Below the pieces are notes generated by a model. That model had not been told where the DNA came from, ran no database searches, and saw only the letters and a program-made list of their open reading frames with translations. From contig JAOVFP010000012.1 of NCBI GenBank assembly GCA_025738555.1, positions 2,852,001 to 2,916,000 on the forward strand: DNA of 64,000 bases, written 5' to 3'. Below, in pieces: positions 8,502 through 54,359 of the stretch (position 1 is the first letter of the stretch; every line of letters starts with the position of its first letter). The translations under genes and the position numbers were made by a program. The DNA comes from Cyathus striatus. Taxonomy: Eukaryota; Basidiomycota; Agaricomycetes; Agaricales; Nidulariaceae.

Positions 8502-11500
8502 TTAAAGATCTTTGGGAAGTACTGGAGAGCCAGTTATACACTGAACCCAGTCAAATCCATAAACAAAATTTGTTAAATCAACTTGACAAATATTATAATT
8601 TGACAATATTTGAAAAGTTTCAAGACCACACAAATTTGCTCTATGATGGAAAGGGACCCAAAACAACTTATGGCCACTGTCATCTTTCAGCCACCCATCT
8701 GAATGACAAGATGGAAATATTTCTGAACCCCAAAGTGATCTGCAAATTTTGAAGTGATCTAAGGTGAGATCTATATTATACACTCTGACAGTTTCATCAT
8801 GTGAGCTAGACACCACTTGTATTCCATTAGGGGAAAATGTCACTAATGTCACCCAATCACTGTGGCCTTTAAATGGTTCTGCAATGGTTTTTCCACTCTC
8901 CAAATTCCACACTCTGACAGTTTGATCATATGAGCCAGATACCACTTGTGTTCCATTGGGAGAAAATGCCACTGATGCTACCCAATCACTGTGGCCTTCA
9001 AATGGCCCTGCAACAGCTTCTCCACTCCCCACATCCCACACTCTGACAGTTTTATCACCTGATCCAGACACCACTTGTGTTCCATCAGGAGAAAATGCCA
9101 CTGATGTCACATAACTATTGTGGCCTTTAAATGGTCCTGCAATGGTTCTTCCACTCTCCACATTCCACACTCTGACAGTTTGATCATCTGAGCCAGACAC
9201 TACTTGTGTTCCATCAGGAGAAAATGCCACTGATGCTACCCAATCACTGTGGCCTTTAAATGGTCCCGCAATAGTTTTTCCACTCTCCACATTCCACACT
9301 CTGACAGTTTGATCATTTGAGCCAGACACTACTTGTGTTCCATTAGGTGAAAATGCAACTGATGTCACATGATAACTGTGGCCTTTAAATGGTCCTGCAA
9401 TGGTTTTTCCACTGTCCACATTCCACACTCTGACAGTTTGATCCCATGAGCCAGACACCACTTGTGTTCCATCTGGAGAAAATGCCACTGATGTCACCCA
9501 ATCACTGTGGCCTTTAAATGGTTCTGCAATGGTTTTTCCACTGTCCACATTCCACACTCTGACAGTTTGATCCCATGAGCCAGACACCACTTGTGTCCCA
9601 TTAGGAGAAAATGCCACTGATGTCACATGATGACTGTGGCATTCAAATGGTCCTGCAATGGTTTTTTCACTCTTCACATTCCACACTCTGACAGTTTTAT
9701 CATGTGAGCCAGACACCACTTGTGTTCCATCAGGAGAATATGCCACACATGTAACAATTGAATTAGTATAATATACTGTATGCAGTTCTGCATTCCACAT
9801 TTTGTCTCTTCCTTTAACAATTGAAACAGTTTTCTGAAAGAAAGGTGAGAAATGTTTCACAATCACTGAGTCTTCAGGTGCAAATGGTAATGCTGACATA
9901 TATATACTTGTTATGCTTATTGTGATAGGAATAAAAAAATGTGTAACAAATTTTATACCATCTTCAATAAAATCAAGTTGATATGAGCAAATCTGATTAA
10001 ATTTAAGTATTTCATTTCTTTACATATCTAAAAGCATACCTTTGTACAATATGTTAATTTTTTCAGCAATTCCTGTGCTGTCTGTACTTCATTTAAGAGA
10101 CTCATTGTTTCCAACCAAAATAAGAATTTGCAGTATAGGAATTCATTTAAGTCTGCTACTAAAGAATTATAGTGGCATTTCTCATTTCCCATCATTTCAA
10201 TATAATGTATGTTCCAATTCCTGCAGCAATATTGAAGATGTGTAGGTATGTACTGTTTTATTTTTTCTGGTAAGCTTTCAATGTCTTTATTTGCTATATA
10301 GGATGATTCAATATTGCAAATATTAAATTTCAGTTCATTATTAAGAATTTGAAAAATCATTTTGGTTACTCTTGGTATGTGTTTGACTCTATTAATTTTA
10401 AATGTGTTATTATTCAAACCTCTTTCCAAAAATTCAACAAATGATAAATGATGAAACATTATGTTGTTATTATTTGTTGAAATGACTGGTAGAAGTTGAT
10501 GTGTAATTCTTTTAACTTCATTTGTAATGGCACTATCATTTCCACTAACATCCAAGAAGTGCTTGATATCCTCTATTCTCAATGGTGATTTTGCCAACAA
10601 TAATGTTGCCAATACTTGTTGAACAATTTCTTTTCTATGTTCTGACCATTTTCCAAATGACAATTGAAGCATTTTATAATAGAGATCTTCAACCCCATGA
10701 CCTGTATTCCATGATAGGACTTCTTGAAGCTTTTCATCTGGTGAAAGCTGGTCATCTTCCTCTGAACTCATGGTAATGTACTTGACTGCAGTAGATGCCC
10801 AGATAAACAATCCAGCAGCTTGTTTGGCCATCCTCCTCAACTCATTTTCTATTAAATCAAATTGTAATTCATCTTTATAATTTTCAAATTTTTTCTTCAG
10901 AAAGATATAAATATCTTGATTTACCTCTGAATCATAGAGTGAATCAGTTTCCAATTTAATAGTTTTGCATATGTTCTCATTCTGGATAATGTCTGGTAGA
11001 GAACCAGGCCTTCCAGTCAAAACAAGCTTATATTGTTTAGGAAGTTGAATCCAATCTTGTATTGTTTTTTTCAAAGATTTTAAAAACTCAGATGATTTGC
11101 ATTCATCCAAGGCATCAATAATAAATGCAGGTGGATCTTTTTTCAGTTGTTCTTTGCAAACATTCAGTGGATCAGTAATCAAGTATTTGAAGTGCCATTC
11201 AATTCTCCCAAGTTGAAAGGTAGTACTAAGCTGTCCTGCAATCTTTTCTCTCAGAATGGAATAATTTGAGTTAGATGCTAAATCTGCAGCTATTGTTCTC
11301 CATACTACACTGGCATCACATAAGTTTTCATCATCTCTCTTGAAGAAATAATATCCACCAAGTCTGCTGTGTTCATTGGAGCTAAGAGTTCCAACCAGAG
11401 TAGAGGCTATTGCAGATTTTCCTGTGCCAGGACTACCAGTAATCCACATAATGTTTGTAGTTGACTCTTCTATAAATTAAATTGATGATTTTTGTAGTAA

Positions 11501-23353: not shown

Positions 23354-23362
23354 GGTACTAGT
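23354..23362 (+). repeat. Target-site duplication of element A, left (GGTACTAGT)
   Basis: GGTACTAGT here and at 29935-29943 are identical 9-bp direct repeats immediately outside the inverted TAGAC(C/T)GGTAGCCGG termini. Confidence 0.75.
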
Positions 23363-23442
23363 TAGACCGGTAGCCGGTCGGTATCGTGTCGATATACCGA
23401 CCGGTCCAACTCGTCGAATTTAGGCGGGGTAAAAGTTATCTA
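23363..23442 (+). repeat. Left terminal inverted repeat of element A
   Basis: It pairs with 29821-29934. Apart from one gap, the differences I can align between the arms are CpG in this arm and TpG or CpA in the other. Confidence 0.75.
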
Positions 23443-23679
23443 GTCTCGATCCAAAAACGTCCGCGTGTGCGTGGACGGTCTTGTACCAAACTAGGGTTTT
23501 TGATGGAGCTGTGTAACACAAACAATAACCATTTGATACGAATACAAGGCTTCATTACATAAGACAAATTTTTATTTACCGGATGTCACAGATAGATTGT
23601 CACGGTCTGTGATAGCGATACGGATTGGCGAAGTGAGCTGTCCGCTGAACTTTCGACATACGTCCTACACTAATTGCCC

Positions 23680-26091
23680 ATGGATTTGGACCCACCCCTT
23701 CCACGTACACCTCCGCGCTCGGAAGTTCCACTGCCAGCACAACCTACGACACCATTTCAAACACCACGTCGTCGAAAAACTCCAGCATCAACACCACAGT
23801 CTAGCCAGAAAACACCAGCACGCAAAATTTGGCCGCGACTTCGCAAGGTTATCCCAATAGAAACTATTGTAACAGTTACTGAGGAGCTATATGGATATAA
23901 GCCCCACCCATGGCAATTGAAAGTATTCGAGAAGGTGGCTGAGGGGAGTGACACTATCGTAATTGCTGGAACTGGGTACGGGAAATCACTTGTTTTTGGA
24001 TTGCTTGCCATAGCGGCAGCGATAGCAGGACTTGGTGGGATTGTTATTGTGATATCCCCACTGAAGACGTTGCAGAAGGATCAGGTAAGCTTTTCAGTTC
24101 AACGATGGATAATTTTACTTACTTTATACAAGGTCCGCCGATTCAACGAAAAGCGAACGTTGGGTAGGATTGGTATAGATGGGAAGCAGCAGGAGTACTG
24201 TATTTCAGCCGTTGCTGTAAATGAGGACAATAAAGATCCCTCAGTGTTTACACGTATCGGAAAGGGTGAATACCGACTCATCTATGCATCACCTGAGATA
24301 CTATTGCACAGTTCACAATTCAAGCAACTGTTTCGAAGCGAGTCCTTTCATAAGAGCATTGTTGCTATGAATGTAGATGAAACACATGTCATCGAGGAGT
24401 GGAAAGACCAGTTCCGGAAGGATTACGGAGAGCTAGCAACATTAAGAACTCTTGCAGGCATGGAGATACCATGGGCCGCACTTACTGGAACTTGCTCTAC
24501 CAAGACCTTCGAGATTGTTCATGCTACACTTGGGATGGGAGGTATGCGGCCTTTCTATGGAGTTGATATGGGTTCCGACCGTTCCAACCTGACATTTATG
24601 GTGAGGCCAATGGAAAGCTCTGCGTCATCAATGGCCAATTTATTTGCAATAATTCCAAGGGATATAAATGACCATAACACATTGGTTAAAACCCTTGTAT
24701 ACCTGAAAACTCATCAACAGGCTCGCAGAGCCTGTCAGCTTTGCTGCCTTCTGGTTAAAACCGAATTTCGAGACGCTATGTTCACACTCACTGCAACATC
24801 CTCAGAAGATTTCAAAGATGAGGTCATGAAGCGCTTTCTGGAAGGAACAGTGAGGATATTATTTGCAACAATGGCAGTAGGAATGGGAACGGACGTACCT
24901 GATATTGAAAAAGTCGTAATATTTGGAGTGGATAGCTTCAACAGCGCGTACCAAAAGGGTGGCCGTGCTGGGCGCTCAGCATCTATTCAAGCAACAATGT
25001 TGTGAATCGTTGAACCATGGGCCTTTGAGCCAAACCACAGCACCTTGTCTCAGCAGAAGTTAATGAAGAAAACGAAAGCAAATGCAGAACGGAGACTCAA
25101 AATGGATCGTGCATCATGGGAATTCATCAACCGTGCCCAATCCCAGCAGTGTCAGCGTATTTTCCTTCGCACCCACTTCCGCCCTCAGCCCAATTTGCCA
25201 GGATTTAAGTGGTATGTTCCACCAGACGATAGTGAAGAGGAGAAATCTAGATTGAAGGCACGAGTAGAGTGGGATGTTGTGGAAGAGATTGACGAGTTGA
25301 AGCAGACATGTGGGTCCTGCAGTGCGCTTGTTTGTCGCAATGATCCAAACATTGCTGTGGGACCCCTCACTCCAACTGAGCAAGATCTCATTGCATATCA
25401 TATCAAAGCACTACAGGCTACTAACCTTGCATTTATAGATACAATGGATACGACTCTGGTTGAAAATGTTGCTCGATTACGATGCACACAGCCAGAACGC
25501 GATGACCTATGTGAGGCACTTAACTCGTGGAGGGATGCCAAATGGAAAGAAATGCGTTCAAAAAATCAACTTCTTTCTCGTAATTGGGTGATCAGCAATG
25601 GAAATATTAACCGCCTCGTTGATAAAGCCCATATTATTCTTAATGTCTTGCAGGTAAGCTCCTCAACCCATTCTATTATATTTTTACCCTCGCTACCAAC
25701 TTCATTACAGGTCAATGCCACAGTCATTCAAAAGCTTATCACATGGATTACAAACGAAGATTTAATGACATCGCTGATCACTGTCCTGGAGCAATTTCGA
25801 CAGGCGCGTTGGGATCGTGACGATCAAGAGGTGACTGAACGACCAGTGAAATGCTCGCATTTAGAACTTAGCACCGACAGCAGTGAAAATCCTTTCGTCG
25901 ATATAGAAGAATATTCAACACATTCAATACTTCAGTGGCAACTACAAAATTATAAGCATGATAATGAGTGCGTAATTATATTTCAACTCCGTCAATATCT
26001 CTGTTACCAAATCTATAGTCTCCACCCAACACTGGATCCTGTGTTGTATCCACATTCATTCTCCCATTTGGATCCTGAAAACCCTCGCTAA
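23680..26091 (+). pseudogene. RecQ-like superfamily 2 DNA helicase (element A), one nonsense codon
   Basis: ATG at 23680 (MDLDPPLPRT). After a Pro/Thr-rich lead come PHPWQLKVFEKV, Walker A AGTGYGKS, VISPLKTLQKDQ, motif II VDETHVIEEW, motif III ALTGTC, FATMAVGMGTDVPDIEKVV and motif VI QKGGRAGR. Two introns (24085-24132, 48 bp; 25654-25710, 57 bp) are in frame. A TGA at 25003-25005 follows QATML; the same frame continues with IVEPWAFEP, a Cys-containing region (CQRIF, CGSC) and a coiled C-terminal part. Family role: ATP-driven 3'-5' DNA unwinding. Without that single stop the protein would be about 770 residues. The last 115 bp overlap the DUF6589 frame on the other strand, so the true 3' end may be earlier. 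Confidence 0.78.
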
Positions 26092-28699
26092 CATCAAAAT
26101 CATCTTGCTGTGAAATAAAAGTAGTGTCCGCTTCTATATCTCCACCCAATATACCTGTTCTGCTTCCTCCTGTTCGCTTGAGCCAATCATCAAACATTCC
26201 TTTCTCTTCCAACATTTCTCTGCCTTCACCTAGCACATCTTGTACACCTCGTTTTTTTGTGTTGGCTGTTTGTATTTTTCGGTTAGGAGTGAATAAATGG
26301 ACCTTCTGAATTGCAAGATCTAGTCGGAGCGCTTTAATATCTTTGTAAGAATCAACTGTTATATGATGTCAATGAAAATCCTGAACGCTAAACCAATGTG
26401 CAACTTCATGAACAAGTGATCGCAGTACTTCCACACAAGCTGAAGATTTGTTCTGAATGTGTTCTATCGAGGCATTACTTCCATGTGCAGCAAACATATT
26501 CTATACGAAATTAAAGCTATGAATAGTGATTGTTTAAATGACTGACTGACCTTCAAAAACCCATTATTATGTTCAAGGTACAGATCGGTTGGAATGGAAT
26601 GACCTTTCTTTCCCCAGTGGTTCACAAGCCATGTGCGTTCAACTACTTCTTGAAGTTGTGGTGAGAATTCATACTCGAATTGGGCTTTCATTTCAAGGAT
26701 TTCATTTCCATAATTGTGACAGCCAGCGCCCCGCATCATAAACACCCAGAAGTCAAAGACTACCCACATTCGTCCTACATCAGCATCACGAATTGCATCG
26801 CAAAATTCCCAAAAGAATAATGCATCACGTATGAATAAGATTGATTGTGCAAGAACCTCATCACCAAGTCCTGTCTCCAAGGCATCATGTGCCGCAGCAG
26901 TTGAAGCAAACCGATTGACAATTTTTTCAACAACATCCTCAAACTCCTCACAGCTAGGTGACCATTTTTTCAAGTCTGAAACTGATTTTGCACCGACAAT
27001 AATTCTGTAAGATCGTGAGGCTTAAATACACCATAGAATTGCTATGGCAAAAATAACTTACCGTGTACAGTCAAGAATGCAAGCTGTAAGAGAATGAAAT
27101 ACCAACTCCTTTGCACTATTATATTCTGGCTTTTTCATATCTAGCTTTGAGCGACAAAGGAGAGTGCGATGATGCTCTAATGAGCTTGGATTGTTCTGAG
27201 CACTTGTTCCAAGGTGTGTCCAGAATATTGAATACATAGCATTGAGCTGAAAATGAAATGGCATAGATGCTTCTTGAAGCCATGTAAATCGCAGATAACG
27301 AGAAAATTCATCTTGCCACTCCTCTTTTACTAGACGTAAGTTACGAATTGTTAACCAATCACCAACAGTGAGGCGAAGCTCAACTTCCACAACTTCACGT
27401 GCCAAACCTAGAAGAGTGGTAAATATTTTCTGTACAACTTGGATTGTGCCATTAACTGAGGCCTCCTCTTCATTAAGAGCAGAGAGTGGAAAAAACTGAG
27501 TCTTTTCATGCTCCAGACATCGGATTTGGGGCTTAAGCTTCTTTATATGCCTGTGTAACTTCCTATTTTTCGCCTTATGGCTAACTGGCCCAGGAGCATT
27601 TAATACAAGTATTGTACGCACAGCATGTTTGAATGCATCATGTGCCTGATATTGCCTTTCTTCTGTTATCCTGAGTTTCTCTAACGTAAGAAGCCGACGG
27701 AGTCCCATTCGTTTTGAATGGTCAGCAATTGAAAGTGTGGATGCATATGCTGCTCTTGAGAACCGTAAGGGAAGTGAAAAGAGAGCTGATGTTGTCGCAT
27801 TAATTTGCTGGGTAGTAGAATCAAGATGTTGAGAAGCCTTTCGCAATGTAAAATTAATGTTGTCATAGACAACACCCCAAAGCCGTGTTGGTGACTGAGA
27901 AAACTCTTGAGCACGCTGTTTTGCATCTTCTGAGAGGTGGGATAATGAACTTTGCACAGTTCTATAGATATTAGAATTAAAATTCTATTGGTAATGTGAA
28001 AATATAAGACATACTGATAGCTGACTGATAGACCCATATGATTGAAGATACCAATAACTCATCTACCAACTCCAGAACTTGATAGAAAAAGCCCAATAAC
28101 GAGTTGAAATGCATTTGTTGCCCTGTTTCTGAAGAATAGACACATGCTTATAATAACGACAACAACCTGAAGCAAAGTAAGTTAAGCAATTGAGTTTAGA
28201 ACTTAATTTATACCTGGTTTGCAAGAACTGTCTTTCCAATCTTATCTGTGTTGTTCCAGTGCTCATAGTCATTCCTTGCTGTGAGAACAGCATATAGAAG
28301 CACAGTAAAGCATGGAAGAAGAATATTGTAGCGCTCTTGAATTTGATCCAGTCCAAATTTAGTTGTCAGGTAGGGTACTGAGACACCAGAAGAAGAAAGT
28401 CGGAGAGTATGATCTCGACAGGCCTTGGTGGATTCTGATATAAGGACATCTGTGGCTGCTCTGGTAATAGCAAGATTAAGATTTACTCTTGATTCCTTTG
28501 GTACATTACAAAGCCATGCTGATAGAATGTGAGAGGGTGCATAAGATGCATCTTCTCTGAAACGCAGTGCTTGGGCAGCAAGCTTCTCTGAACTATAGAA
28601 AGCTTGTATGAACTCATTTGGAGAGCGGAACCCAATTCCTGTAAGAGACTTGACTGCTTTAGTAAGTTTCTGGTCTATTGTCGTCTTCTTGTGTGCCAT
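25976..28699 (-). pseudogene. DUF6589 protein (element A), candidate transposase, two nonsense codons
   Basis: ATG at 28699. Exon 1 runs to 28214 (MAHKKTTIDQ onward). Later exons, joined at GT-AG introns, read RNRATNAFQL, NHMGLSVSYQ, WGVVYDNINFTLRK, VGDWLTIRNLR, RGAGCHNYGNEIL, NHWGKKGHSIPTDLYLEHNN, GFLK, NMFAAHGSNASIEH and a C-terminal acidic tail to 25976. The YDN, VGD and LEHNN motifs and the NMFAA..SNAS block are the hallmarks of DUF6589. Two in-frame TGA codons (one after SSGVGR, one after SVQDFH) break it. Biochemical function is unknown for the family. The same D/D/E pattern in element B's copy suggests a nuclease or transposase fold. Confidence 0.75.
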
Positions 28700-29820
28700 A
28701 CTAAAGTCAAGAAGGTGGAGAAGCGCATTTGTGGGGGCATGCGTCGTGATTGAAATATTGATGCACGCGAAAAATTAAAATCACATGACTACGCGTAAGT
28801 TTGATGTGACTTGCTTCCATGACACTTCCCATCAGTCCGGCATTTCAAACGATTTTTCCATTCAAATAGTTTGAAGTGCTTCAAGTACACAAAATTTTAC
28901 AATTTTAAGGCTACCATGAAGTCAATATGCACTATAATTTTGTAATAATTACATGAGAGTGTAGCTTTAATAGCGGGGACCAAATTATCTCTATTAATGG
29001 TGTGCAATGGAATCGAACCCAAGGCTACAGGTGCAATTTAGGTTGTGATTTTACATTGCCCTTCACTTTCCCTACTTTCGTCTAAGCCCCTCTCATGTTT
29101 CGTGGTCGGCCTATATCCAGAATAGACCATGTGAAATCGTGGGAGGGGATTTGATGAGCCTAAAAAGTTATCGGCGTTAAGACCTTTTGGGCTTCAAAAA
29201 TTACCTTTTTGGGATTTTCAAGTCCTCACGGGTATGCATGATCCCTCCCGTCGTCTCTCATTTTTATTGTGTTTCCCTTCAGCTTTGCACTTTGTATCCT
29301 CTATTTTAAATAGTATTATAACTTTTACAATTATCTGAACCACTACCATGTCTAAGAACCAAGGTATAGCCCATGTAGTGTCCCTTGCCCCCACCAGCCA
29401 ACCAAGCAGCACCTCCAACAATCTAATTCCACCATCTTCCCTCTATCTCTTGCACATTTCAACCTTTTTAAGCACTGAATCCCCCAAATCTACCATATTT
29501 AGAGGCCATGGAAGGGAGTTAACGCACTTTCAGCTGATTATAAGACTGTGTGATGCTGTTCAGTGTTGACTTTTGAGGGTATGCCTGAATCTTGAGTGCT
29601 ATCTGTTGACCATGGAGACTAATGCAGCATATTCTGCACATCGGGTGGTGTTGACATATAGATGTAGTCAATAAATGGTAGAGTTGAGGAGCCTTCAGGA
29701 GGGAGTAATGGAAGGGAGGACAACAGGTAGATGAATGACGTGTTGCACATGAGCACTGAGATGGGAAAGTACGGCTCTATCTGAAACCCAAAAAAGGCGA
29801 TTTTGTGAAGCCTTAACACT
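28700..29820. other. Element A region between the DUF6589 start and the right TIR
   Basis: About 1.1 kb with no convincing gene. It should hold the DUF6589 promoter. Near 29010 the minus strand has GGGTTCGATTCC, an exact pol III B-box-like word, but no matching A-box or clover-leaf was found, so no tRNA is called. Confidence 0.4.
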
Positions 29821-29934
29821 GATAACTTTTACCCTGCCTAAATTTGACGAGTTGGATCAGTCGGTATATTGACATGATACAATCCTTCATATCACATGAA
29901 CACAGTCTCACAATACCAACCGGCTACCAGTCTA
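29821..29934 (-). repeat. Right terminal inverted repeat of element A
   Basis: Reverse complement of 23363-23442 with a 44-bp extra piece. CpG sites of the left arm are mostly TpG or CpA here. Confidence 0.72.
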
Positions 29935-30010
29935 GGTACTAGTAGTGTTCAGTTCACATACATCATGTGATGCTCAATCTTATCATCAGATTCATCACCC
30001 AGAAAATTGG

Positions 30011-30020
30011 CTGGGTCAAG
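30011..30020 (+). repeat. Probable target-site duplication of element B, left (CTGGGTCAAG)
   Basis: The identical 10-bp word is at 42200-42209 in the same orientation, next to inverted GG(C/T)TCCTAAAAC termini. On the left a 4-bp spacer (TGCA) lies between it and the terminal inverted repeat. Confidence 0.65.
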
Positions 30021-30290
30021 TGCAGGCTCCTAAAACTGTCCTATTGTTCACAGGTAGGGGGGCCCCATCCTAGTAGCATAGTGTACAAACAATGTACAAA
30101 CATAAACAGAACCAAACTCAAGTCTCCCCTCCTACCTGCGAAGATAGGCTGGCAAAATGTCACCTCACGTGATACAGTCACCCTCCACTGTGACTTAAGA
30201 ATGTACAAATAAACCCTACTGTAGGGGTAAATATAATGACTCAGTTACAATTTAAAAAAAATTAAGATCATTTATATAATAAAAAAACTG

Positions 30291-33200
30291 ATGGCACGAC
30301 TTCGGCACATCAAAGATTCTGACAACTATATTCACATGCTGCTCGCTACTTGCAATATCCTCAAGTCCTTCTCAGAAAATAAAATAACAGCTGCAGAGTT
30401 TATATTAGACATACTACAAAGCCCCATACTCATATACAATGAACAGGTGCAATCACTTGCAGAGTGCAGGAGTGAGATATATGCAGCACTTGCTCATCAC
30501 CCTGCTACAAAGAAGACAGCCGAGGAATGGACCATCAGTAAAATGAAGGACATCTGTTCACAGGAAGCTGTCACCCTGGCAGACCAGAATGCCGGCTTTC
30601 ACTTTGGTGCCAACACAACTACTCAAGAGAAGCCGCATAACTTCAGTCTAGCAGAAACTGCCACTAAAATGAAACAACACACACCTGTACTTTGGGATTT
30701 CCTTGCACAGCTGCTTGACGCTGAAATGGGTAGTTGTATTCTAGAAGTGTATCCTGCTATAGTTACACAGCAAAATCACTTCTAACTTGTACAAAATTCC
30801 GAAAATGCGAGTGACAGGTAAGGTAGTGCTCCTTTTTATATCAATGTATCTTTAAATTCACTTTTCAATCCCAAATGAATCGAAACAATAATGATTTATT
30901 GGAAGAGGAGAAGTAATACACTCTGTACTACTCTGAAATTGCAAGAACCTAATTAACACTTCTTGTGTTAACTTAAATCCTTAAAAACCAGTTGAAAGCA
31001 ACCCTTTGCTTTCCTTAAATTCGCTTTTACTCAGAGTCTCAAATACTAGACCCTCACTGGAGCCTCAGTCCTTTGCACTTTGTAATAAATCCCACAAGAT
31101 TCCGATAAAATCACTTTAAATTACTTTGAAACAACAAGACCTAAACCACTACCCTATACCTATGTACTGGTCATCTCATTATTATAATTTACCATTGATA
31201 CAGCATATTACACTTGTTCTTTCGAGTATATTTCATTCATCAGAAGTATGTATTACCCATAGACCAACATTAAAGTTCTGTAGAGTCTTGTACTCCGAGT
31301 AATGCATAGCCTTCTTCATTAATATTCCTTATATCATGTCTGACTACTTGTTTAATATCCTTCCTGTTGCCAAACAAACAATTATAGCGGTCTTAGAACT
31401 TAACAGACACCTATATAAGTCATGTGACTGATGCTGAAGCGGTCCATTTTAATGATTATATTATCTTTCCTTTATTTCCAGGCTAGTGGTAGGTTGGACA
31501 TTGAAGCACTTATAAGTATATTTGTAGGTGGTTTATGACTATTAATATTAAGTCAATGTGTTGGGTGCTTGCTATTGAATAGCAGTCCATGAATCTTTAT
31601 TTATTATATGGGCTTCCTCAATGTGTTCAGCTTTAATGCTGAAAATGATAAAAATGTGCAATTTTACACCTAAATGCACAAGTGGCATCACAACACTGAT
31701 CCTGTTTACAAACACAAGTGTGAGCAAAAGCAGCAGGTATGTGGTGCCGGAACAAGTGTGCTCTCTGCTGTGAGCAGAGGAAATAATGGTGACATTGAAA
31801 TGGCTGATGTCAGGGCAATGCTGGATAGTGAGCATGCAAATCCTGCTGAAGATATCATTGAGGGAGACGAGGATGAGCCTGAGGACCTAGAAGATCACCT
31901 GGAACAGCGCTGGCGAGCTCTGATTACAATTGTAAGTATGCCAGAGTGAAACACAGAAATCCTACTTACAGTGCAAATTAATAGAAGCAAATCATCTGCA
32001 TCAGTATTATGATGCAAAGCACCAATCAAGCATGTAATGCACTTCAATGTGTCTTTGGGATCTTCTTGCATTCATGCAATGCACCGGAAACAGTCTGTGA
32101 ATTGATGAGTTGCATTGGCTTATCTATTTCAACAACATTGATCAATTATGCTGTGAACAATCTTTCATTTGAGGCTGACAAGGAAATGCGCAAGTTGGGA
32201 CAGACATTCTTGACAGCATATGCATATGATAACCTAGACATTGATCTGAAGCATACAGTCCTGACAGTGGAGAAGACCCAAGAGACACTGGTACACCTTA
32301 CCACAGGAACACTTATTCCACTACACAAGGTGACACCAAGCGATCTTGACTGTTCTGAAGAGCTATGGAAGAGCTCATTAAACAACACATCAAAGGATGC
32401 AGAGAGTTTTACAGTACCTTTTAGCAGGCTAATAGAGTGGCATTCACAATTTGATATGCCACATTTCTCAGGCCTTACACTATGAGAGTGGTTCAACAAA
32501 TGGAAGTTCCTTTACGATCTAATTCACTGTGGGCCCGAATACTTTCATTGTTTCCAATACAATCTTAAAGATCCTGATGTTATTGAAGCAATACCCTTAA
32601 AGAAAACACGACAGGTACCTTTACACACCCAGGACCTGAGTCCTTCAATGCCAGCACAAAATGCTGAAGCACTTGAGACCTTTATAAAACAAGCTGGTGT
32701 TGGTGACCCAAAGCACCACAGATTAAAACCAGCTGGCAATAATGTAATACTAGTATTTGGTGATTTACTCACCTTGGAATGAATTCATAGTCTTCAAGAG
32801 TCATGTTCAGTTGAAACAATGGCATGGAGAAGACTTCAGTTAATAATTGCAATAGTGGGGATGATTCACAGTAAAATGGCATGTGCTGACTCCTTGTGGC
32901 AGGTGTATTTTAAGACAAAAGGCTGCTGCAATGACCAAAATAGCCTATTGTCACATGTCAATGAAATTCGACCTAAAGAAACTTCAAAAATAGAGAGCAA
33001 ACCTGGTTTCTGGTGCATGCATGAAGTAATCCAGCATGTGGGCATTGCTTCTCAACTGGAATGTTGGAGAGTTGAGGCCACAAAGAGGGGATATCCAACT
33101 CTTGAGAGTTTTGTGGAGAGTAAGCCATCTTGGGAAATGCTGGAGCAAATGGCGAATGAGATGGTGGTGGAACAAGTGGGCAATGGACTAACACTCCAAA

Positions 33201-34021
33201 AGATGTGTGCTCAAGATCTGAAAACGTGAGACCAAGTATGTGAAAATCTTCTAATGTGTCAACAGCATTTCCTGCTTTACGAAGAAATGTCATATGCATT
33301 GAACCAAGGCGATATAGGGCACATGGAATCATGCTTTCTGCCCTGGATGTTCATATTTCAGGGCTGTGGAAAGCATAAGTACGCTGCTGAGTTCAGAAGA
33401 TACATAGAAAACATACATTTTAGGTACCCAAAGGGCCTTAGGTATGTATGTTGTCTTCGAGTTGGTTTTAGTTTATCTGATTCATATATTGGTTTCAGTA
33501 AGGCAATCAGAATGAATATACTAAGTAATCCTACCAGCAAGAAAGGACACTTCAGGGCTATTGATTGGGTTGTTGAGCATAATAATCTATATATAAAAGT
33601 AAGTAATCATTTAAAGGCACTCAACATACCTATGACTCAAAGATAACAGAGGATATATGGTGGAAAGTATTCAAACCACACGAAAACTCGAATTCTTAGG
33701 GAGTCTGCACTCATAGAGGTTTTCAAAAACATTTGCATTCAATTTGAACAGATGTTTTGCTTGAAACATAAGATGACGAGACACTCACCACCTAATATGA
33801 AAGCTACATTCTCAAAACTACAGTGCTTCCTGCAAGAGAACAAGGCTTGTGTCAGAGTACCAGGTCAAAAATCAAAGTGCTGCTTACTGGATGTCATGAT
33901 GAAAGGTATGCAATACTATTTGACACCATGGTCAGCTAGTATCAAAGCAGAGGAAGGGAAATGGATTGACTTACTTGACGAGGAAATGGAGGTAGAGGAT
34001 GATGGTAGCTTAGATGTGTAG
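30291..34021 (+). pseudogene. DUF6589 protein (element B), interrupted and with nonsense codons
   Basis: Starts ATG 30291 (MARLRHIKDS) and runs through HTPVLWDFLAQLLDA, then a 1-kb repeat intervenes (30721-31695). It resumes DPVYKHKCEQ, then SSCIGLSIS-like NLSF and AYAYDNLDIDL (YDN), LVFGDLLTLE (GD), IGHMESCFLPWMFIFQGCGKH, WVVEHNNLYIK (EHNN) and a C-terminal CLLDVMMKGMQYY block to 34021. Introns are GT-AG, for example the one starting GTAAGT at 33599. In-frame TGA codons occur after SGLTL (32483), after LLTLE (32780) and after DLKT (33227). It is the partner of the helicase at 35317-41864. Confidence 0.72.
30721..31697. mobile_element. About 1-kb repeat inserted in the element B DUF6589 gene (copy 1)
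   Basis: Matches 43093-44517 in inverted orientation from ACGCTGAAATGGGTAG at one end to CATCACAACACT at the other, except for a solo LTR present only in the second copy. It splits LLDA from DPVYK of the DUF6589 protein. No inverted termini or reliable target duplication are seen, and it has no gene. It could be a non-autonomous or solo remnant of an unknown type. Confidence 0.65.
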
Positions 34022-34079
34022 AGTCATTCACGAACAGAGATAACGTTGTTTAATATGAGATATGCTGATGCCCCCTTCC

Positions 34080-34720
34080 CTTCCTGAGTCAACAAAGCCT
34101 AAGTCCAACAGCCAACGAACATGAAGGTGAATATGATGGCTGATGCCCTCCAATGGCCAACATGAAGGTGAATACGATGGGTGAATATAGTCCAACAGCC
34201 AGTGGCCCAACGGCCTAACAATTGATTCCAAAGTCCAATGGCCAATGCAAAGAGCTGAGGACGAGTGCTCCAATGAGGTGGATGACGAGTCCAACAGCCA
34301 ACAACAACCCCCTTCCTGAGTCCAACAATGGCCAACATGATGGTGGCCCGAGTTTGATGGCTCCAATGAATACGCATAACAAATACACATAGTGCTAATG
34401 TTCTGAGTTCAACAAAATTGACGGAATAAAACGTGACAATCACATACGCTGGCTGATGCCATGAGGACCCCCCTTCATGCCCCCCTCCCCGAGTCCAATG
34501 GCCAACATGACAGTGAGGTTCCTGAGGAGAAGGGTGCTCCTGGAGTTATCCCGAAGTCCAACACCCAAAGTCCATTGAAAAGCTGATGGTCATAGAGTTA
34601 TCCCGAAGTCCAATGCCCAAAGTCCATCAAAAAGCCAATGGTCATATGCTGACGGCCCTGAGTCATCCCGAAGTCTAGCACCCGAAGTCCAATGAGTCTA
34701 ACAAGCCAACAGCTTTCTGA
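34080..34720. repeat. Degenerate repeat of GTCCAACAGCCAA / GAAGTCCAATG words
   Basis: Short words AGTCCAA(C/T)(A/G)GCC, GGCCAACATGA and CCCGAAGTCCA recur irregularly between the two convergent genes of element B. The open frames across it are repeat artefacts. No gene is supported between 34022 and 35316. Confidence 0.6.
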
Positions 34721-36170
34721 ATGATCAAGAGGTGGTTGTGGTTGTTGTGTTGCAGAAGTGTTGGGGAAAGGGGGAAATAAGGGACAGTGCACAGGACAAA
34801 ATGGACTTGGGGTATGTGCAAGTGGCCCTGGTGTACGTGGTAAGTACTGCTGATAGAATGATGGAAGTCTGGCAGGCGTTGCAGGTGTGGATGGAGTGTG
34901 GGGTCATGGTTGAGTTGGAGGGTGGGGTTGTTGCAGAGACAGAGGGTGCAGAGACACAAGGAACAGAGGCATTGGAGATGTGGGAAAGAGTGGAGGGTAG
35001 GGTCATTGCAGCATAGGCATTGGAGACATGGAAAGAAGAGCCAGAGGCGGAGGGTGGGGTCTGACAGTCGGAGACACAGGGAACAGAGCCATATGGTGGA
35101 CCAGAGAAGATGATACAAGTCTCAGTCCTGGAGCTGAAGAGATCAATGGTAAGGATCTATAATGACTACGAGCAGGAGTTGTTGAGGTGTCGACATTGCT
35201 TGGAGGGGGAATGTGTTCTCTTTTTGCTGAACAGCAATTCACACTGGACAGCTCAAGTTAGTTCCTACATGACATTAGAATATCAGTTAAAAAATCAACT
35301 GCTATAATTGTATATTTCACATACTGATGTGCCCCATACCATCTAGCCCAATGTCATTGCAAGCCCTACACTGTCGAACCTCCTTTACGTATTTGCCTGT
35401 TGTTATCGTCAAACTTGTGGTCGAAGTTGAAGTAATTGATGCTGATGATGTGGGAAGAGGGAAGTATGCATGCACAATGGCCAAGATGTCACTGCCAAAC
35501 TCGACCACCCATTCCTTCAACCAGCTTGTTTCCTTCATGAGATGGCTAGCTGACTTCACCTTGAACACTTGGCCACACGCAATGATATGCTCAATGGTTT
35601 CATCTGGCATCAGTAAGTAAGGACCAAATGTTCGTACCATTTCAGAACCGAACTTTACAATTGCTGCTTCTTCCCTCCACTTCCATAATGCCTGTCTGAG
35701 TTCCAGATGCTGTGAACTCATGTTGAACAATTTGATAGTTGACTTCTTCAATGTACTATGCTCTTTTGGAAGGGACGCAGTATTCAAGCCTCCAGTATAC
35801 TCAGGATTGCAGGTATCACAGCAGGTGGGGTAGGACTTTGGGCAGTAATGTGTGCAACCACTTGCTGTTGTAGTCTCACAGTATAGATGGTCATTGGATG
35901 CTGTCAACAAGGTGGTAAGCGCCCTTATTGTTATGAATTGAGAATAAAGGGACATACTTCTTTGATCATTGCCAAAATAGATCTGAAGAACTTCGCGATG
36001 GCACTGTCCTCCCTCAGTATCATTGCCAGCATTGATATACTCATCCATGGCACATCCTAGTTCAACAACAATGTCCTTTTTCATTTGAATTATCGTGGCT
36101 GGCCCAGCATTCCTTTTTCTGTCGAAATCTGCGTAATGTGCTCACCTTTTGTTGTTGGCTCCCATTGTCT

Positions 36171-36178
36171 CTTCAGTC
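36171..36178 (+). repeat. Probable target duplication of the Harbinger element, left
   Basis: CTTCAGTC here and CTTCAGTT at 40361-40368. In the interrupted helicase frame the ACTGAAG (other strand) encoding VTE is present on both sides, which supports a real duplication of 7-8 bp. Confidence 0.6.
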
Positions 36179-36239
36179 ATGAGTGTTAGCCAATGTGATC
36201 ATAAAAATGTAGTGTTTTATGATTGCGGCAATCATCTAT

Positions 36240-36395
36240 CTCATGATTGCCTGTTTCTAATGTAACAACAATATGCCTATTATAATATGGTAATCATATG
36301 CAATCATTGGTTACTTTAAAGTGTATATTACTACTGTAGGCCTATTATAAATGGTGATCATATGCAATCATTGATAATTTGAAGTGTATATTACT
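36240..36395. repeat. Left subterminal repeats of the Harbinger element
   Basis: About two and a half units of ATGCAATCATTG..TTTAAAGTGTATATTACTACTGTAGGCC. The right end has about eight (39780-40320). Confidence 0.75.
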
Positions 36396-36625
36396 AGACA
36401 CGCGGGAAGAACGTGACAAATGTGATGCGCGGGAATTATCTGGAGCGCGGGAATGATGTGGAGCGCGGGAATTATGAGAAGCGCGAGAAGTGTGTGACGC
36501 GGCTGGAAATGTGTGACACGCGGGAAGAACGTGACAAACGTGATGCGTGGGAAATACGTGACGCGCGCGAAGAATGTGACAAATGTGACATGAGGGATAT
36601 CAGTGACATATTAGTACAATAGTCG
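36396..36625 (+). repeat. GTGAC/GCGCGGGAA repeat block of the Harbinger element
   Basis: Words GAACGTGACAAATGTGATGCGCGGGAA and variants repeat here, as in the arms of the 1361-5509 element and, in decayed form, at 52790-53200. The 69-residue open frame is an artefact. Confidence 0.65.
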
Positions 36626-36797
36626 CGGTCAAAGTTGAGCTGCAACTTTTGCAGCTGCAGCTGCAGGTGGCTGTGTGTTGCCATAAACAGTCGACGCGTG
36701 TGAATTTGAAACTCAGCCACATTCCGATGTCACGCTGCAGCCACAACTCAATCGTGTTTTATCTGATTTAACTACTTTTACACATCTCTCTCTTCAT

Positions 36798-38113
36798 ATG
36801 TCTGGTTTACCTACTCGAGAAGAAGCTATTGAAGCTTATCTAGTTAATATGATGGCCAGAGATGCTTTGTTCCCACCACAAACTCTTGAAGAGGCATGTA
36901 TTCAGTTTAATATTGATGCTTCTATAGTAGTTGCTGCAAGTGAAACACACTACCTCAATGGAAGAGATCACAGAGTTCCAAAGTCAGGAAACCTCCATCT
37001 GGCCTGGGAGTACCTGAAGGATCCACGAGACCATCACCGATTCCTTAATATGCTTCGCATTCCACCACTTTCATTCGATACTCTACTTCACTTGATTGAA
37101 AATCATGAAGTCTTTGAAAATAACTCAAACAACTCACAGGCACCAGTTAAAGTACAACTTGCTGTAACCCTTTATCGAATGGGTAGAACTGGCAATGCTA
37201 CATCTCTTGAAGACACTGCTCGCATGGCAGGGATTTCAAAAGGCTCTGTTGAAAACTACACCAATCGCTGTCTCATTGCAATTGAATCACTTCATGAGCA
37301 GTTTGTACGGAAATTGACACCAGAAGAGAAGGAGGCAGAAAAAGCATGGATAGATCAACAGATTGGGTTTCAGGGGGCTTGGCGTGATGGCTGGGTTATG
37401 TATGATGGAACTATTGTGGTGCTATTCAGGAGGCCAGGATATGAAGGTGATACATACTATACCAGAAAGGGAAATTATGGACTCAATGTTCAGGTATATC
37501 TCTTTTATAACAATCCACTCTTACTAAAGTAGCATTGTTGTAGATTGGAAATGTTCCATCCAATCTACGAATTGTGGATTATTCATATGGAATGACAGGT
37601 GCAGCACATGATGCTGCTGCTTTTGAATATACAACAGCAAATCAATTTCCTGATTGGTTTTTTAATGGACAAGAGTTTGCTTGGACTGATTCAGCTTACA
37701 CTTGTAACAATCGAACAATTCCTGTTCACAAGGAACCAGCCTCTCGTCTGCCTCATAATGCAATATTTGACAAATATGTTTCACATATTCGTGTTCGCTC
37801 TGAGCACTGCATGGGAGCATTGAAAGGTCGATTTCAATGCCTTCGAGGTTTACGCATTTCCATTGATACCAAGGACGCTCACTTTCAATCACTCCGCTGG
37901 ATTAAGTGTGCTATAATTCTTCACAATCTTGTTATTGATGTGGAAGGAGCTGGTTCAGCTGAGTATTTTCAAGGTATTTACACTGCAATTGAGGAGATGA
38001 TGGATGGAGAAGGCCAGAATAATGAAATGGGTGACAGGGAAGATGGTGAAGTCAAACGGCAGAGGCTTATTGATGAACTTATGGCATTTCGGGAGGAAAG
38101 AGATCAGAATTGA
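36798..38113 (+). CDS. PIF/Harbinger transposase (DDE_4 endonuclease)
   Basis: ATG 36798; one 50-bp intron (37494-37543) joins GLNVQ to IGNVPSNLR, giving 421 residues. The N-terminal half (about 1-190) has the helix-turn-helix-like KVQLAVTLYRMGRTG..ARMAGISKGSV region. The catalytic part starts at MYDGTIVVL (first Asp) and includes SYGMTGAAHDAAAF, FAWTDSAYTC (second Asp) and RVRSEHCMGALKGRFQCLRG (Glu). It cuts and joins the transposon ends. The complete triad and absence of stops suggest it is functional. Confidence 0.9.
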
Positions 38114-38250
38114 CATTAAATAATTTTATAAAGATGTAACAAGTAGGGTAAATAGATTGATATTAACAGATCTGTAGATATAAATTTTTGCATATGTAAT
38201 GAGTGGTGGGATTTGTTTAAAGGAAAGAAAGAATGGATAGTAATGCCCAA

Positions 38251-39518
38251 TTAATTAAATATGTTATCATCTGATGAATTAGTATCACGATTAGGCCAAT
38301 CTGGAGAAGACTCTCTTTCAATCCGACGGCGCTTGGGGTCAAGCTCACGCATCTTTTCCTGGTACTGCTCTGTTGTCCAGATTCCAAGCTTGAATTCCTT
38401 AAGATACATCTTGCGCAGCTGAATGCAGTAGTCCTGATCAGACTTATCCTTGAGTAATTTAATATTATTTCTAGAAGAAATATAAGTACACATAAAGAAA
38501 GAATAGATAAAGCTTACTGTGCCATATCAAGCATCATTTCTGATACCGATCTTTTCTGTGGAACATTGTGAGAAGCTTTTTGGAAGGCCTGAGCAGTAGA
38601 TAAAGAAATCCGAGTGCTCAATGGTGTTGGTGTTTCTGGGAGATTGACTGATTGTACTGAGCGTACACCTGGTACCATTGAGGAGGGAGGGGTAGGAAGA
38701 GGACCCTGCTGGGAAGTAGGAGTTTGAAAAATGGCCTGAGTCTGAGTTAGAGCATGTTGGCGATCCTCCTGAAGTAATACAGGATCAATAACATCATCAG
38801 GAGGCTGGAACCACCTAGTTTGGGAACCATTGGGACCAAGTGGAGTTGTTACAACAATTGGAACAATGTTTGGTCGACTGGAAAGAAACTGGTGAAGTCG
38901 GGGAAAGAATGGAAATTCTGCTATAATTTCCTCTTATAATCATGTTACCTAATTAAGAATAAACAAATGAGAGAGAGACAACACACCCCATATATTGACA
39001 GCCTCTTGTGGAGTATTTTCATCAGGTCCTTGAGCTGGAACATAGAAATCATGTGTTGGTTCTGAGGGGATATTATCCTTGTCCCCAACTCCTTCCCCAG
39101 TGCGTCGAAGACGCTTCACATGGAGCTTGTAGGTAGTGAACAACCTGAAAATGTATGAACACACTATTATAACATAAACAGAAAGGATACGCACTGCTCA
39201 ACCTTCTGCCTCACCCTATGACCCATTGCAGTAGCACTTATTTTACATTCTGCAGGAAAGAGAACTTCTGCAATGCGCTTAGTAACTTTTAGCTTGGTGT
39301 CTCCAGTAGTATTCTGTACAAAAAAAATCAGTTGCATTGCACAAATTAATTTAATAGTCACACACATCAGACTTATTAGTCTTTCCAAAGAATAGGGTAC
39401 GATTGGCAGGCAGTTCAAGCTGGGTTAATAGGGCCCAAGTCAACTCGTAGTCATTCTTTGCCCATTTAATGACAGGAATCTTCGTTTCATTGGTTCGCTG
39501 AGACTGAGATGCTTCCAT
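38251..39518 (-). CDS. Myb/SANT-like DNA-binding protein of the Harbinger element
   Basis: ATG 39518 (MEASQSQRTN) then IKWAKNDYELTWALLTQLE, an intron, TKRIAEVLFPAEC, QKVEQ, an intron, LFTTYKLHVKRLRRTGEG and a Pro/Gln-rich middle (PLPTPPSSMVPGVRSVQ). The last exon ends RRRIERESSPDW to NIFN at 38251. A Trp-rich Myb/SANT N-terminus is typical of the accessory protein that helps Harbinger transposases reach the nucleus and bind ends. Exon borders other than the clear GT-AG ones near 39315-39366 and 38471-38517 are approximate. Confidence 0.72.
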
Positions 39519-39779
39519 ATTTAGTGAGCTATTATTATAGAGTAGAAGAGGGGTATAGGGTGGGTATAACGAAAGGGGAAACAGGCTATAATTGGTGGAA
39601 AGACCGTAAACGATGCCAAAATGGAGTGTGAGGTGGCATCACTTCCGCGACCGGTCACAAGCTGTCACTGTCTGAGTTTCAAATTCACGCGCGTCGACTG
39701 TTTATGGCAACACACAGCCACCTGCAGCTGCAGCTGCAAAAGTTGCAGCTCAACTTTGACCGCGACTAATAGCTATATC

Positions 39780-40320
39780 CAATTAGTAGCAACCAATGAT
39801 TGTTTATGATCACTCCAGCATACAGTAGTAATATACACTTCAAATCACCAATGATTGCATATGATCACCATTTGTAATAGGATTACAATAGTAATATACA
39901 CTTCAAATTATCAATGATTGCATATGATCACCATTTATAATAGACCTACAGTAGTAATATACACTTCAAATCACCAATGATTGCATATGATCACCATTTA
40001 TATTAAGCCTACAGTAGTAATATACACTTCAAATCACCAATGATTGCATATGATCACCATTTATAATAGGCCTATAGTAGTAATATACACTAAAAACTAA
40101 CCAATAATTGCATATGATCACCATTTGTAATAGGATTACAATAGTAATATACACTTCAAATTATCAATGATTGCATATGATCACCATTTATAATAGGCCT
40201 ACAGTAGTAATATACACTTTAAAGTAACCAATGATTGCATATGATTACCATATTATAATAGGCATATTGTTGTTACATTAGAAACAGGCAATCATGAGAT
40301 AGATGATTGCCGCAATCATA
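39780..40320. repeat. Right subterminal tandem repeats of the Harbinger element
   Basis: About eight units of some 60 bp: CACCAATGATTGCATATGATCACC then ATTTATAATAGGCCTACAGTAGTAATATACACTTCAAAT. Each contains the palindrome TGATCA or ATATGATCA and could serve as repeated protein-binding sites. Confidence 0.85.
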
Positions 40321-42209
40321 AAACACTACATTTTTATGATCATATTGGCTAACACCACTCCTTCAGTTACTTCTCTCTGAGCCTTACTACTGGCTGCTCC
40401 CACATCAAGGATAGCTGCCAATGCACGTAGTTCCTCTTCGCCTTCGCAATCACTTTCAAGATCTTCATCACCAACACTAGCAAGATCAGGATGTTCGATA
40501 TTTGTATTGTAGTTCTTGTCAACAAGGGCTGGCCGCTTGTTAGGTTTCATTGATTGATGTGATTGGTCACTTTTCTGCTTCGCTCCCACTCAGCTTCGCT
40601 GGGCCTGGTGTATTTTGGTATGTGTCTCCTTCTCCCCTCTTCCTTCAGTGGTATCCTTCTTCTCAATGATTAGCACTGCAGTTCCATCTTGTCCTTCGCC
40701 CCTAGCTGCATGACCGAACCTCTGCCATAATGCGCAAAGCCCACAGGTAGCCTTCAATTGGACAACAAGCTTTATGTCTGGCAGATCCATTCCCTGTAGG
40801 TACATACATACTCATTCAGTTTTAATGAATCCTATTTCAACAGAACACATACCATGCCGAACACATCTATAGCACAAAGTCCCCAAATAGTTGAATTACG
40901 AAGATCTTCAAAGTTTTCCTCCTGGTAGTCTGATGTCATTGTCGAGTGAAAGTATCGGACCTTGTCTTCTAGCGAGGCTGGAAGTCGTTGTTGCAAAAAC
41001 TTCACTGCACATTTGGACTCCTTAGTGCTGTCGAAGAATACGACAAATTTTGGTGGAGGTGGGTTGCCTTCCTTAAAGTTGTCTGGAATGATGAAAGCTA
41101 AGTCTTGAAAGCTATTAGCAGAGTGCTCCATAGGCTTGACTTTCAGCTAAATCTCTGGGCGATCATTTGAATATAGTATGTGTTCAGTCTTTTCAGGGTG
41201 GAATTGTAGTACCTGTATGATGTCTTGCAACACTGAGTCTGGTAATGTGGCAGTGGCAGCATATATTGGAATTTTGTTTGATACAACGTAGTGAAGTGAC
41301 CCAAGCTGTGAGTATTCTTTTTGGAACCTGCTCCACTGGCTTATGCACTGACTCTCATTGATAATGAAATTTAGTATTTGCATGACAACCTTGGGCTTCT
41401 CCCACAAGTTCTGAACATAGGGATTTCCCATTAGGAGCTCTGGGCTCATAATGACAACCTGATATGTGCCGCTTTCGACAGCCTACAGTGTGTTAGATTA
41501 TTAATTTCCTCCTAATAACATGTACTTTAAAGGTTTCTGCCATTGTGTTCTCCTGTGAGATTGCTATTGCTTTTATTCCAGCCTTCTCCAACATCTCGAT
41601 GTTCTGCTTTCCTAATAAATTCAATGGCATCACCACAATCAACATTTTATCTAATCCATCTTCAATCACCATAAGTAATGGAATCCAGAATGACAAGGTC
41701 TTCCCAGAACCTGTTGCAGCACAGCTGATAACATTCTTGCCAGCATACAGTGCCATTGCAATCTTCAACTGCATCCAACATGCACACTTGTTGAATTTTG
41801 CCTGTACAAGTTTCCATATTTCTGGAATAGACCATTTTCTTGTGGAATCGGGGTTGTCTTCCATAGGTGGCAAGATAGATTATTTCCATTGTGCTTGCAC
41901 GTCTTGTTACTCTGATTCAAAAATGATGTGATTACCACTTTAGGATGCTACAAGTGATGGTAATGTAAAATAATATCTTGACGACCTGAGTATCTGTAGC
42001 CCTACGGTAGGGGTTGTGAGGACATTTGCAGGTCAGAACTAACAGTGACAAAATCACATGAGGTGACATTTTGCCAGCCACTCTATCATGTTGAGGAGGG
42101 GAGACTTGAATTTGTATATATTTGTACAGTTATTACAAATCACTGATGTACTAGGATGGGGCCCCCCTCAATGTGATTCGAGAGGCAGGTTTTAGGAACC
42201 TGGGTCAAG

Positions 42210-43090
42210 CACTCAAGCACCTCCTTAAGCTGCATCTGTGATTAGATTCGACCACAAAGGCAAAACAAAAGTATCCCACTGATAACACCATTCTTATGTA
42301 CTTCAGCAAGCACCAAAACTGAAACTTGGGACCATTCTCATCCACATCTTCCAGTGTCCACACACACTCATCACATGAATTAATGATTAATCTTACTGTT
42401 CCAATCTACCTGGCTATCAATAACAACAGAAATAGAACGATGTGCACTGGTTAATCAATACTTGCCAACAATAAGTTGAAATCCACCAGCTGGCGTTCAT
42501 TCCTGCATAAATGATTAAACACTGAAGTAACATGTTAGCTTGCTCCCTTCACATATGGTGCGGATTTTCCAGTGTTGTCACGAAGAGATCCAGATATGTA
42601 TATGGACTAAGTACTGCAAAATGAAGGAAACCCTTCTGCAGTCCAGTTGACAGGTCTCACAGTAGAATGCTTTCGAATCTCCATGGCTCCAACTTAGTGG
42701 GACATCAGAAAGAGGATGGGGCTGCATCATGTGATCATATAGAGCAATCTGTTAGTGCATTGACATGAGGAAGTTTCTTGACAAAAGACAATTGAACATG
42801 TTGAGCAATGAGTGGAAAACCACAGGGTATGAATTATTTTTACATAGTATGGTAAACTACCAGTTACCCTGCTATCTCATTGACTTTGTTCCCCAACTAG
42901 ACTCTCTTGCTGGGGCAGAGAAACTACTGCACTCTCAAGTGAATCTTAAATACATTGCAAAAATCGATTGATATCACTGATGTAGGATGAATCACGATTC
43001 ACAGTGCATCAATCTATTTACTAGTGGATGATGCCGGTAGGTTGCCAGTAAGTCTTGGATAGTGATTCCTTATACATAGTATTGTGACGC
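42210..43090. other. Spacer between element B and the next repeat
   Basis: AT-rich, with only one short frame (42765-42971), without motifs. No gene, RNA or repeat recognised. Confidence 0.45.
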
Positions 43091-44986: not shown

Positions 44987-46211
44987 ATGGCTGAAAATCT
45001 TCATATATTCTCTGATTCCCACCATGTCTATATACCTGGTGTTCAGATGAATGCTGTTGGTTGTGATCAAATTAATAATTATAACAAAAAAGATGATGAA
45101 ATGTCTGAAAAACTTAAGTTATTGAAGCCTGTTGATCATAACAGGCTTTATCTGCCTCCATATATGGAAGGGACTAGGGTTACCATTCTGAAAGATATAA
45201 ACAAGTGGCTCAATGATTTTGGTATGTTGTTCTATATGTATTCACTACAAAAATTATCAATGCAATTTTACAGATGAGTTAACTACAAACATTATGTGGA
45301 TTACTGGTGATCCTGGTTCAGGAAAATCTGCAATAGCATCAGCTCTGGTAGCCACTCTTAGCTCCAATGAATACAACAGACTTGGTGGATATAATTTCTT
45401 CAGGAGAGATGATGAAACCTTAAGTGATGCCACTGTAGTTTGGAGAACAATAGCTGCAGATTTATCATCTAATACAAATTATTCCATTTTGAGAGAGAAG
45501 ATTGCAAAACAGCTTAATACTACCTTTCAACTTGGGAGAATTGAATGGCATTTCAAACACCTGATTGCTGATCCACTGAATGTTTGCAAAGAACAATTGA
45601 AATCACATCCACCTGCATTTATTATTGATGCCTTAGATGAATGCAAATCATCTGAGTTTTTAAAATCTTTGAAACAGACATTACAAGATTGGATTCAGCT
45701 TCCTAAACAATATAAGCTCATTTTGACTGGAAGGCCTGGTTCTCTACCAGACATTATCCAGAATGAAAACATATGCAAAACTATTAAATTGGAAACTGAT
45801 TCACTCTATGATTCAGAGATAAATCAAGATATTTCTTTCTTTCTGAAGAAAAAATTTGAAATTTATGAAGATGAATTACAATTTGATTTAACAGAAAATG
45901 AGTTAAAGAAGATGACCAAACAAGCTGCTGGATTGTTTATCTGGGCATCTACTGCAGTCAAGTACATCACCCTGACCCCAGAGCAAGATGACCAACTTTC
46001 ACCAGATGAAAAGCTTAAAGAAGTCCTATCATGGAATACAGGCCATGGAATTGAAGATCTCTATTATCAAATGCTTCAAAAGTCATTTGGAAAATGGGGC
46101 TCACTTGGACATCACAGAATTTTACAATCATGTTTTCTTGATGGATATGTAAAAGATAACAGTGGCCATATATTATTTTGGGTGCCTTTTCATCAAAGAG
46201 AAAAATTGTGA
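44987..46211 (+). pseudogene. NACHT gene copy 2, WD40 region deleted
   Basis: ATG 44987 (MAENLHIF), one 52-bp intron (45222-45273). Walker A GDPGSGKS and AFIIDALDEC are intact and the sequence follows copy 1 to LYYQMLQKSFGKWG. It then jumps directly to the extreme C-terminal block (SLGHHRILQSC..SGHILFWVPFHQREKL) and stops at TGA 46209. About 1.9 kb (rest of the helical region, all WD40 repeats) are missing relative to copy 1. After the stop the same C-terminal tail continues (YNMCQIDLTHFVCG). A NACHT-only protein of about 390 residues could still be made. Confidence 0.75.
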
Positions 46212-54350: not shown

Positions 54351-54359
54351 AACTGTGGG

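Follow-up and report, generated by a model that had tools for sequence, protein, structure and literature searches.

Within a 64,000-nucleotide stretch of the Cyathus striatus genome (contig JAOVFP010000012.1, positions 2,852,001 to 2,916,000; hereafter, the window), open frames and Pfam matches reveal two pairs of facing genes: a RecQ-like helicase gene (+) and a gene for a DUF6589 protein (-) at 23.7-28.8 kb, followed by a DUF6589 gene (+) and a helicase gene (-) at 30.2-41.9 kb. A preliminary description of this DNA had noted both pairs and assigned them to two mobile elements, A and B. The helicase/DUF6589 elements are real mobile units, and the window very likely holds two decayed DNA transposons of the AcademH type (23441-29162 and 30023-42202), with DUF6589 as DDE transposase and the convergent RecQ-like helicase as accessory protein. 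AcademH is a lineage of Academ DNA transposons reportedly described by Kojima in 2020 (Mob DNA 11:15).

Element A is a nest, in which an 840-bp non-autonomous element is split by the helicase/DUF6589 element at 23441-29162 (Table 1). The inverted ends at 23363 and 29934 and the exact GGTACTAGT repeats around them stand as originally described; ends of this type (TAGACCGG) are not, however, the termini of the two genes, and the nested structure rules out a single element spanning 23363-29934. That the inner element has ends of its own follows from comparison of the window copy with a relative on contig C2, whose gene pair is 97-98% identical and lacks the TAGAC(C/T)GGTAGCCGG ends; this sibling has the same ends as the inner element and a 10-bp duplication, GCATGTTTTC. 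Within this lineage, exact 10-bp duplications are also found on contig C8 and at another locus on C2. Insertion of the inner element is shown directly by a paralogous empty site: three uninterrupted elements (L097, L098, and L102, from seven short elements fetched) align with the 840-bp outer element over 824 bp at 88-91% identity, and are ~97% identical and gap-free over the 120-bp joint. The other four of the seven, which are of the TAGACCGG end type, align near the ends only.

The helicase gene of the inner element has one in-frame stop (25003-25005), and its C2 sibling occupies an open 805-amino-acid frame; a Pfam scan of 25006-26091 gave no match. The inner DUF6589 gene matches PF20231 in 27058-27984 (E=5e-42) and 26464-27021 (E=5e-53), while its frame at 28208-28774, for which Pfam gave no match, is assigned to the gene by position. 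The C2 sibling (C2:35400-41950; loci L001, L048, L049, and L110) lies ~35 kb from a contig end, and a frame flanking it is helicase-like by eye, perhaps belonging to a subtelomeric RecQ gene.

Element B does have inverted ends near 30 kb and 42.2 kb, as first proposed, but the GGGGGGCCCCATCCTAGTA motif then taken for its terminal repeat is subterminal; the terminal repeat is CAGG(C/T)TCCTAAAAC, at 30023 and 42202. The duplication originally suggested, CTGGGTCAAG, extends three bases into the right terminal repeat and was discarded; the actual flanking duplication is decayed, at 9 bp with two mismatches. L039, an element of this type measuring 6,918 bp, bears the exact duplication AGAAACTTC. 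Compared with L039, B has ~960 bp extra near 30.7-31.9 kb in addition to the insert at 36183-40355, such that removal of both leaves about 7.0 kb, the size given in the preliminary description, whose view of A and B as "two families of one design" holds. The insert splits the helicase side of B and has perfect arms with 63-bp subrepeats; no clear target duplication was found around it. The wider extent of B's DUF6589 gene was drawn from open frames and from similarity to L007 and L039, and the probable 3' part of its helicase gene gave no match in the Pfam scan.

Table 1. Positions of elements, genes, and target duplications in the window.
Feature	Position	Strand	Remarks
Left target duplication GGTACTAGT, outer element	23354..23362		exact 9-bp copy at 29935-29943
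Outer non-autonomous element	23363..29934		inverted ends TAGAC(C/T)GGTAGCCGG; 840 bp without inner element and one duplication
Left target duplication AAAAGTTATC, inner element	23431..23440		exact 10-bp copy at 29163-29172
Inner helicase/DUF6589 element (AcademH-like)	23441..29162		5,722 bp; ends TAGTCTCGATCC and TAGGCTCATCAAATCC
RecQ-like helicase gene, inner element	23674..26091	+	DEAD (E=4e-13) and Helicase_C (E=6e-10) in 23674-25005
Putative DUF6589 transposase gene, inner element	26464..28774	-	exon-like frames 28208-28774, 27058-27984, 26464-27021
Right target duplication AAAAGTTATC, inner element	29163..29172		exact 10 bp
Right target duplication GGTACTAGT, outer element	29935..29943		exact 9 bp
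Left target duplication GGTCAAGTG, element B	30014..30022		7/9 equal to 42203-42211
Element B	30023..42202		12,180 bp; ends CAGGCTCCTAAAAC / CAGGTTCCTAAAAC; collinear with L039
Decayed putative DUF6589 transposase gene of B	30240..34021	+	PF20231 in 33230-33646 (E=2e-31) and 32783-33229 (E=4e-21)
Helicase gene of B, probable 3' part	35317..36147	-	35489-35712 and 36032-36147 alignable to L039 immediately past the helicase matches of that element
Insert (214-bp inverted arms, Harbinger-type DDE_Tnp_4 gene)	36183..40355		PF13359 (E=1.5e-18) at 37544-38110
5' part of B's helicase gene	40523..41879	-	DEAD (E=8e-12) at 41493-41879; collinear with L039
Right target duplication GGTCAAGCA, element B	42203..42211		7/9 equal to GGTCAAGTG

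The ends of these elements recur throughout the genome (107 Mb in 24 contigs). Three end types gave 184+186 (=370), 74+69 (=143), and 56+48 (=104) matches, the first being the ends of element B's type and the last the outer A type (TAGACCGG); with reversed patterns the counts were 8+4 (=12), 0+1 (=1), and 0+0 (=0), respectively. As the genome counts lie far above those of the reversed patterns, the ends are not chance matches. Pairing of adjacent ends up to 15 kb apart, restricted to the first 100 matches listed per end type, gave 97 inward-facing pairs, no outward-facing pairs, and 2 on the same strand. Of the inward pairs, 71 were shorter than 4.5 kb; among the remaining 26, DUF6589 was present in 18.

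Flanks were compared for 49 elements: the 18 long pairs with DUF6589 (among them the outer element of A and two loci of the C type), element B, five other loci, five of the eight long pairs in which DUF6589 is lacking, and a subset of 20 from the 71 short pairs, picked mostly for their shortness. An exact 9-bp duplication was present at 36/49 elements, and one with at most a single mismatch at 38/49; flanks swapped between elements yielded no 9-bp match in 2,352 comparisons. No exact duplications of 6-8 or 10-12 bp were found among the 49, and lengths of 3, 4, and 5 bp occurred once each. The 11 elements lacking a duplication within one mismatch were element B (two mismatches), L096 (two), L086/087 (three), C12fam, L031, L034, L068/069, L088/089, L093, L099, and L104. 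Uncontrolled counts for the inner-element lineage gave an exact duplication of 10 bp in 4/11 cases and of 9 bp in 1/11; for C10 and C13 the flanks agree by eye at 9/10 bases, and for C5, C17, C6, and L042 no matching end was found in the stretch searched. Duplications are thus mostly 10 bp in this lineage (L038, L119, L120, L124, L125, and window positions 23431-29172), versus 9 bp in the other three end types.

Mutator-like elements (MULEs) make duplications of 8-10 bp, including 9 bp, so that a MULE family with a captured helicase would have the duplication length seen at three of the four end types. That one lineage has mostly 10-bp duplications counts against such a family, as does the absence of any MULE domain from the matches at E<=10 of two DUF6589 proteins, a range in which HMMER filters drop most matches above ~0.1. 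We therefore rejected this explanation, which agrees in duplication length and disagrees in transposase domain, as very improbable.

Linkage of the two genes was surveyed genome-wide. A DUF6589 search, with 102 of 201 candidates scored, yielded at least 105 matches at no fewer than 93 loci, whereas a search with the helicase of A as the sole query, with 95 of 182 candidates scored, yielded at least 79 loci. A helicase match lay within 10 kb of 55/93 DUF6589 loci and was lacking for 38/93; the linked pairs were convergent in 53 cases, on the same strand in 2, and divergent in none. Conversely, 54/79 helicase loci lay within 10 kb of DUF6589 and 25/79 did not, such that the suggestion that RecQ-like copies belong largely to this class, made for Agaricomycetes at large, is supported for this genome only. 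With a small helicase profile, built from five sequences of which three came from the loci in question, a convergent helicase was detected in 13/13 loci retrieved as 10-kb segments (the final ones in the list of 93, on contigs C18, C19, and C21). Locus L041, a same-strand case in the single-query search, also has a convergent helicase by this profile. No DUF6589-helicase fusion was found. At C5:1628638-1638300, the ends of which lie in L068 and L069, a mirror-image double element holds two DUF6589 and two helicase loci within one end pair; no matching duplication was found there.

Some copies are recent, as indicated by the near-identity of L031 and L034 (99.95% over 6,081 bp). These two lie ~47 kb apart on contig C18, in opposite orientation and with their duplications CTCTCAAGG and CCAACATGC exchanged between them, which suggests that recombination between the copies inverted the intervening ~47 kb; an assembly error is the alternative. 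Among the 20 short elements, L090, L091, and L095 have C-type ends and inner pieces mostly 95-100% identical to the C-type element, which L092 resembles more weakly; internally deleted derivatives of the C-type element are present. Seven of the 20 are of the TAGACCGG type, for which the comparison contained no autonomous element.

Resident host genes clustered in repeats, with no transposon involved, might also yield many broken copies, as found here, and RecQ-like genes have been reported at chromosome ends in Agaricus bisporus var. burnettii (passages of PMC7473861). Such a reading is contradicted by the target duplications and the empty site, fits poorly with near-identical copies, and is in our estimation the least probable of all. 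Convergent linkage, terminal repeats, duplications, the empty site, recent copies, and internally deleted derivatives instead bear out the mobile unit envisaged in the preliminary description.

As to the proteins, the helicase of the inner element has TIGR00614 recQ_fam as its best NCBIfam match (E=4e-42, below the curated cut-off); among solved structures, the best relatives are those of WRN, RecQ, and BLM. For the DUF6589 protein of L008, the nearest homologue is from the mushroom Cyathus striatus (78% identical). The predicted fold of a DUF6589 homologue resembles the RNase H-like DDE transposases of Hermes, the P element, and RAG1, and the secondary structure of the model shows a helical insertion ahead of the last acidic residue. 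The catalytic residues would be D304, D469, and E718 (P0009 numbering); D469 is kept in 29/30 loci and E718 in 24 of the 25 that are alignable there (five are not). E675/E678 was rejected as the third catalytic residue, E675 being lost in two locus groups (L003, L009, and L017; L027, L028, and L030); our choice of E718 is a preference drawn from the alignment, not a proof. Ratios of nonsynonymous to synonymous divergence (dN/dS) at dS ~0.2 ranged over 0.22-0.27 in the transposase and 0.31-0.32 in the helicase part (three pairs, all involving L011); the closest transposase pairs gave 1.33, 0.51, and 0.75. We read these values as pointing to purifying selection on both genes, albeit from few independent pairs.

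The preliminary description knew of no account of this class; however, fungal Academ elements carrying helicases (AcademH) and making 9- or 10-bp duplications have already been published (in passages of PMC10045372, PMC10799480, and PMC6416283), and the class is probably not new but of this known kind. One could still suppose that DUF6589 elements form a large mushroom superfamily apart from Academ, with an obligate convergent RecQ-like partner and a stagger of 9 or 10 bp by lineage, an idea to which we give little credence. Neither Pfam nor NCBIfam names DUF6589 a transposase, neither the word DUF6589 nor any connection of that family with a transposase turned up in the literature searched (which says nothing on papers outside that search), and PF20231 and IPR046496 returned only an optics paper from it. 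Set against this are the reports of PF00270 and recQ_fam in fungal Academ (a passage of PMC6416283) and of 9- or 10-bp duplications in AcademH (a passage of PMC10045372). A DDE transposase not close to Academ that had convergently acquired both is unlikely, because two unrelated fungal superfamilies would then need both traits. Were it true, a large share of the genes filed under DUF6589 or as additional RecQ copies in Agaricomycetes would constitute one undescribed mobile class.

For elements of the AcademH type, the DUF6589 protein would bind the terminal inverted repeats and excise the element, which would then insert via cuts staggered by 9 or 10 bp, with host repair generating the target duplications; movement would be by cut-and-paste instead of copying. 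The RecQ-like helicase would be an accessory encoded by the element, its most likely role being to unwind DNA at the ends or the target during strand transfer or repair.

What is new here is that the DUF6589 family looks like the AcademH transposase; the corrected element anatomy and the 9- versus 10-bp duplications by lineage are further additions. If DUF6589 is the AcademH transposase, (i) a Pfam family of unknown function gains a function, (ii) many mushroom gene models labelled "hypothetical" or "RecQ" leave host gene counts, and (iii) the same models drop out of studies on helicase expansion or host-transposon fusion. Moreover, as the same gene pair occurs with mostly 10-bp duplications in one lineage and 9-bp duplications in three end types, a proposed relation between accessory enzyme and duplication length (raised in a passage of PMC10045372) becomes testable within AcademH.

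Elsewhere in the window, genes or fragments of the NACHT/WD40 kind, which we take to be HET-E-like, lie at 8502-11476 (-), 45201-46211 (+), and 54214-55804 (-). The first contains eight WD40 matches, which look very much alike by eye; the third is assigned on resemblance alone.

Among known transposons, Helitrons lack terminal inverted repeats and target duplications, both of which are present here, and were rejected. hAT elements (Hermes), the P element, and RAG1/Transib share the RNase H-like fold of the predicted homologue model, and are known for helices inserted ahead of the final acidic residue; hAT and P elements make 8-bp and Transib 5-bp duplications, and these families are not known to carry a helicase. 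Kolobok elements make TTAA duplications. KolobokH resembles the present elements in being a DNA transposon of fungi that carries a RecQ helicase, but that helicase is described downstream of the transposase domain (a passage of PMC9587614), whereas the genes here are convergent in 53/55 linked pairs and 13/13 fetched loci. The duplications here are of 9 or 10 bp and not TTAA, and KolobokH was rejected. Zisupton (KDZ) elements are also fungal DNA transposons with terminal inverted repeats, but have 8-bp duplications (a passage of PMC12730594), found in 0/49 elements here, and were likewise rejected.

With AcademH, by comparison, the elements share a helicase carried with the transposase, terminal inverted repeats, 9- or 10-bp duplications, fungal hosts, and, on the predicted model, a DDE transposase with an RNase H-like fold; the helicase, the host, and the duplications agree with the published description and support the match. 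No tested trait differs, and membership in Academ is probable on the traits just listed. Low copy numbers are reported for AcademH in Basidiomycota, Ascomycota, and Mucoromycota (a passage of PMC10799480); in Marasmius oreades, elements taken for non-autonomous MULEs and Academs are said to be widespread (a passage of PMC8290104). In common with the fungal Academ copies of PMC6416283, the present elements have a DEAD (PF00270) and recQ_fam helicase within the element, of a sort often annotated there as host genes; the transposase domain left unnamed in that passage would here be PF20231 (DUF6589).

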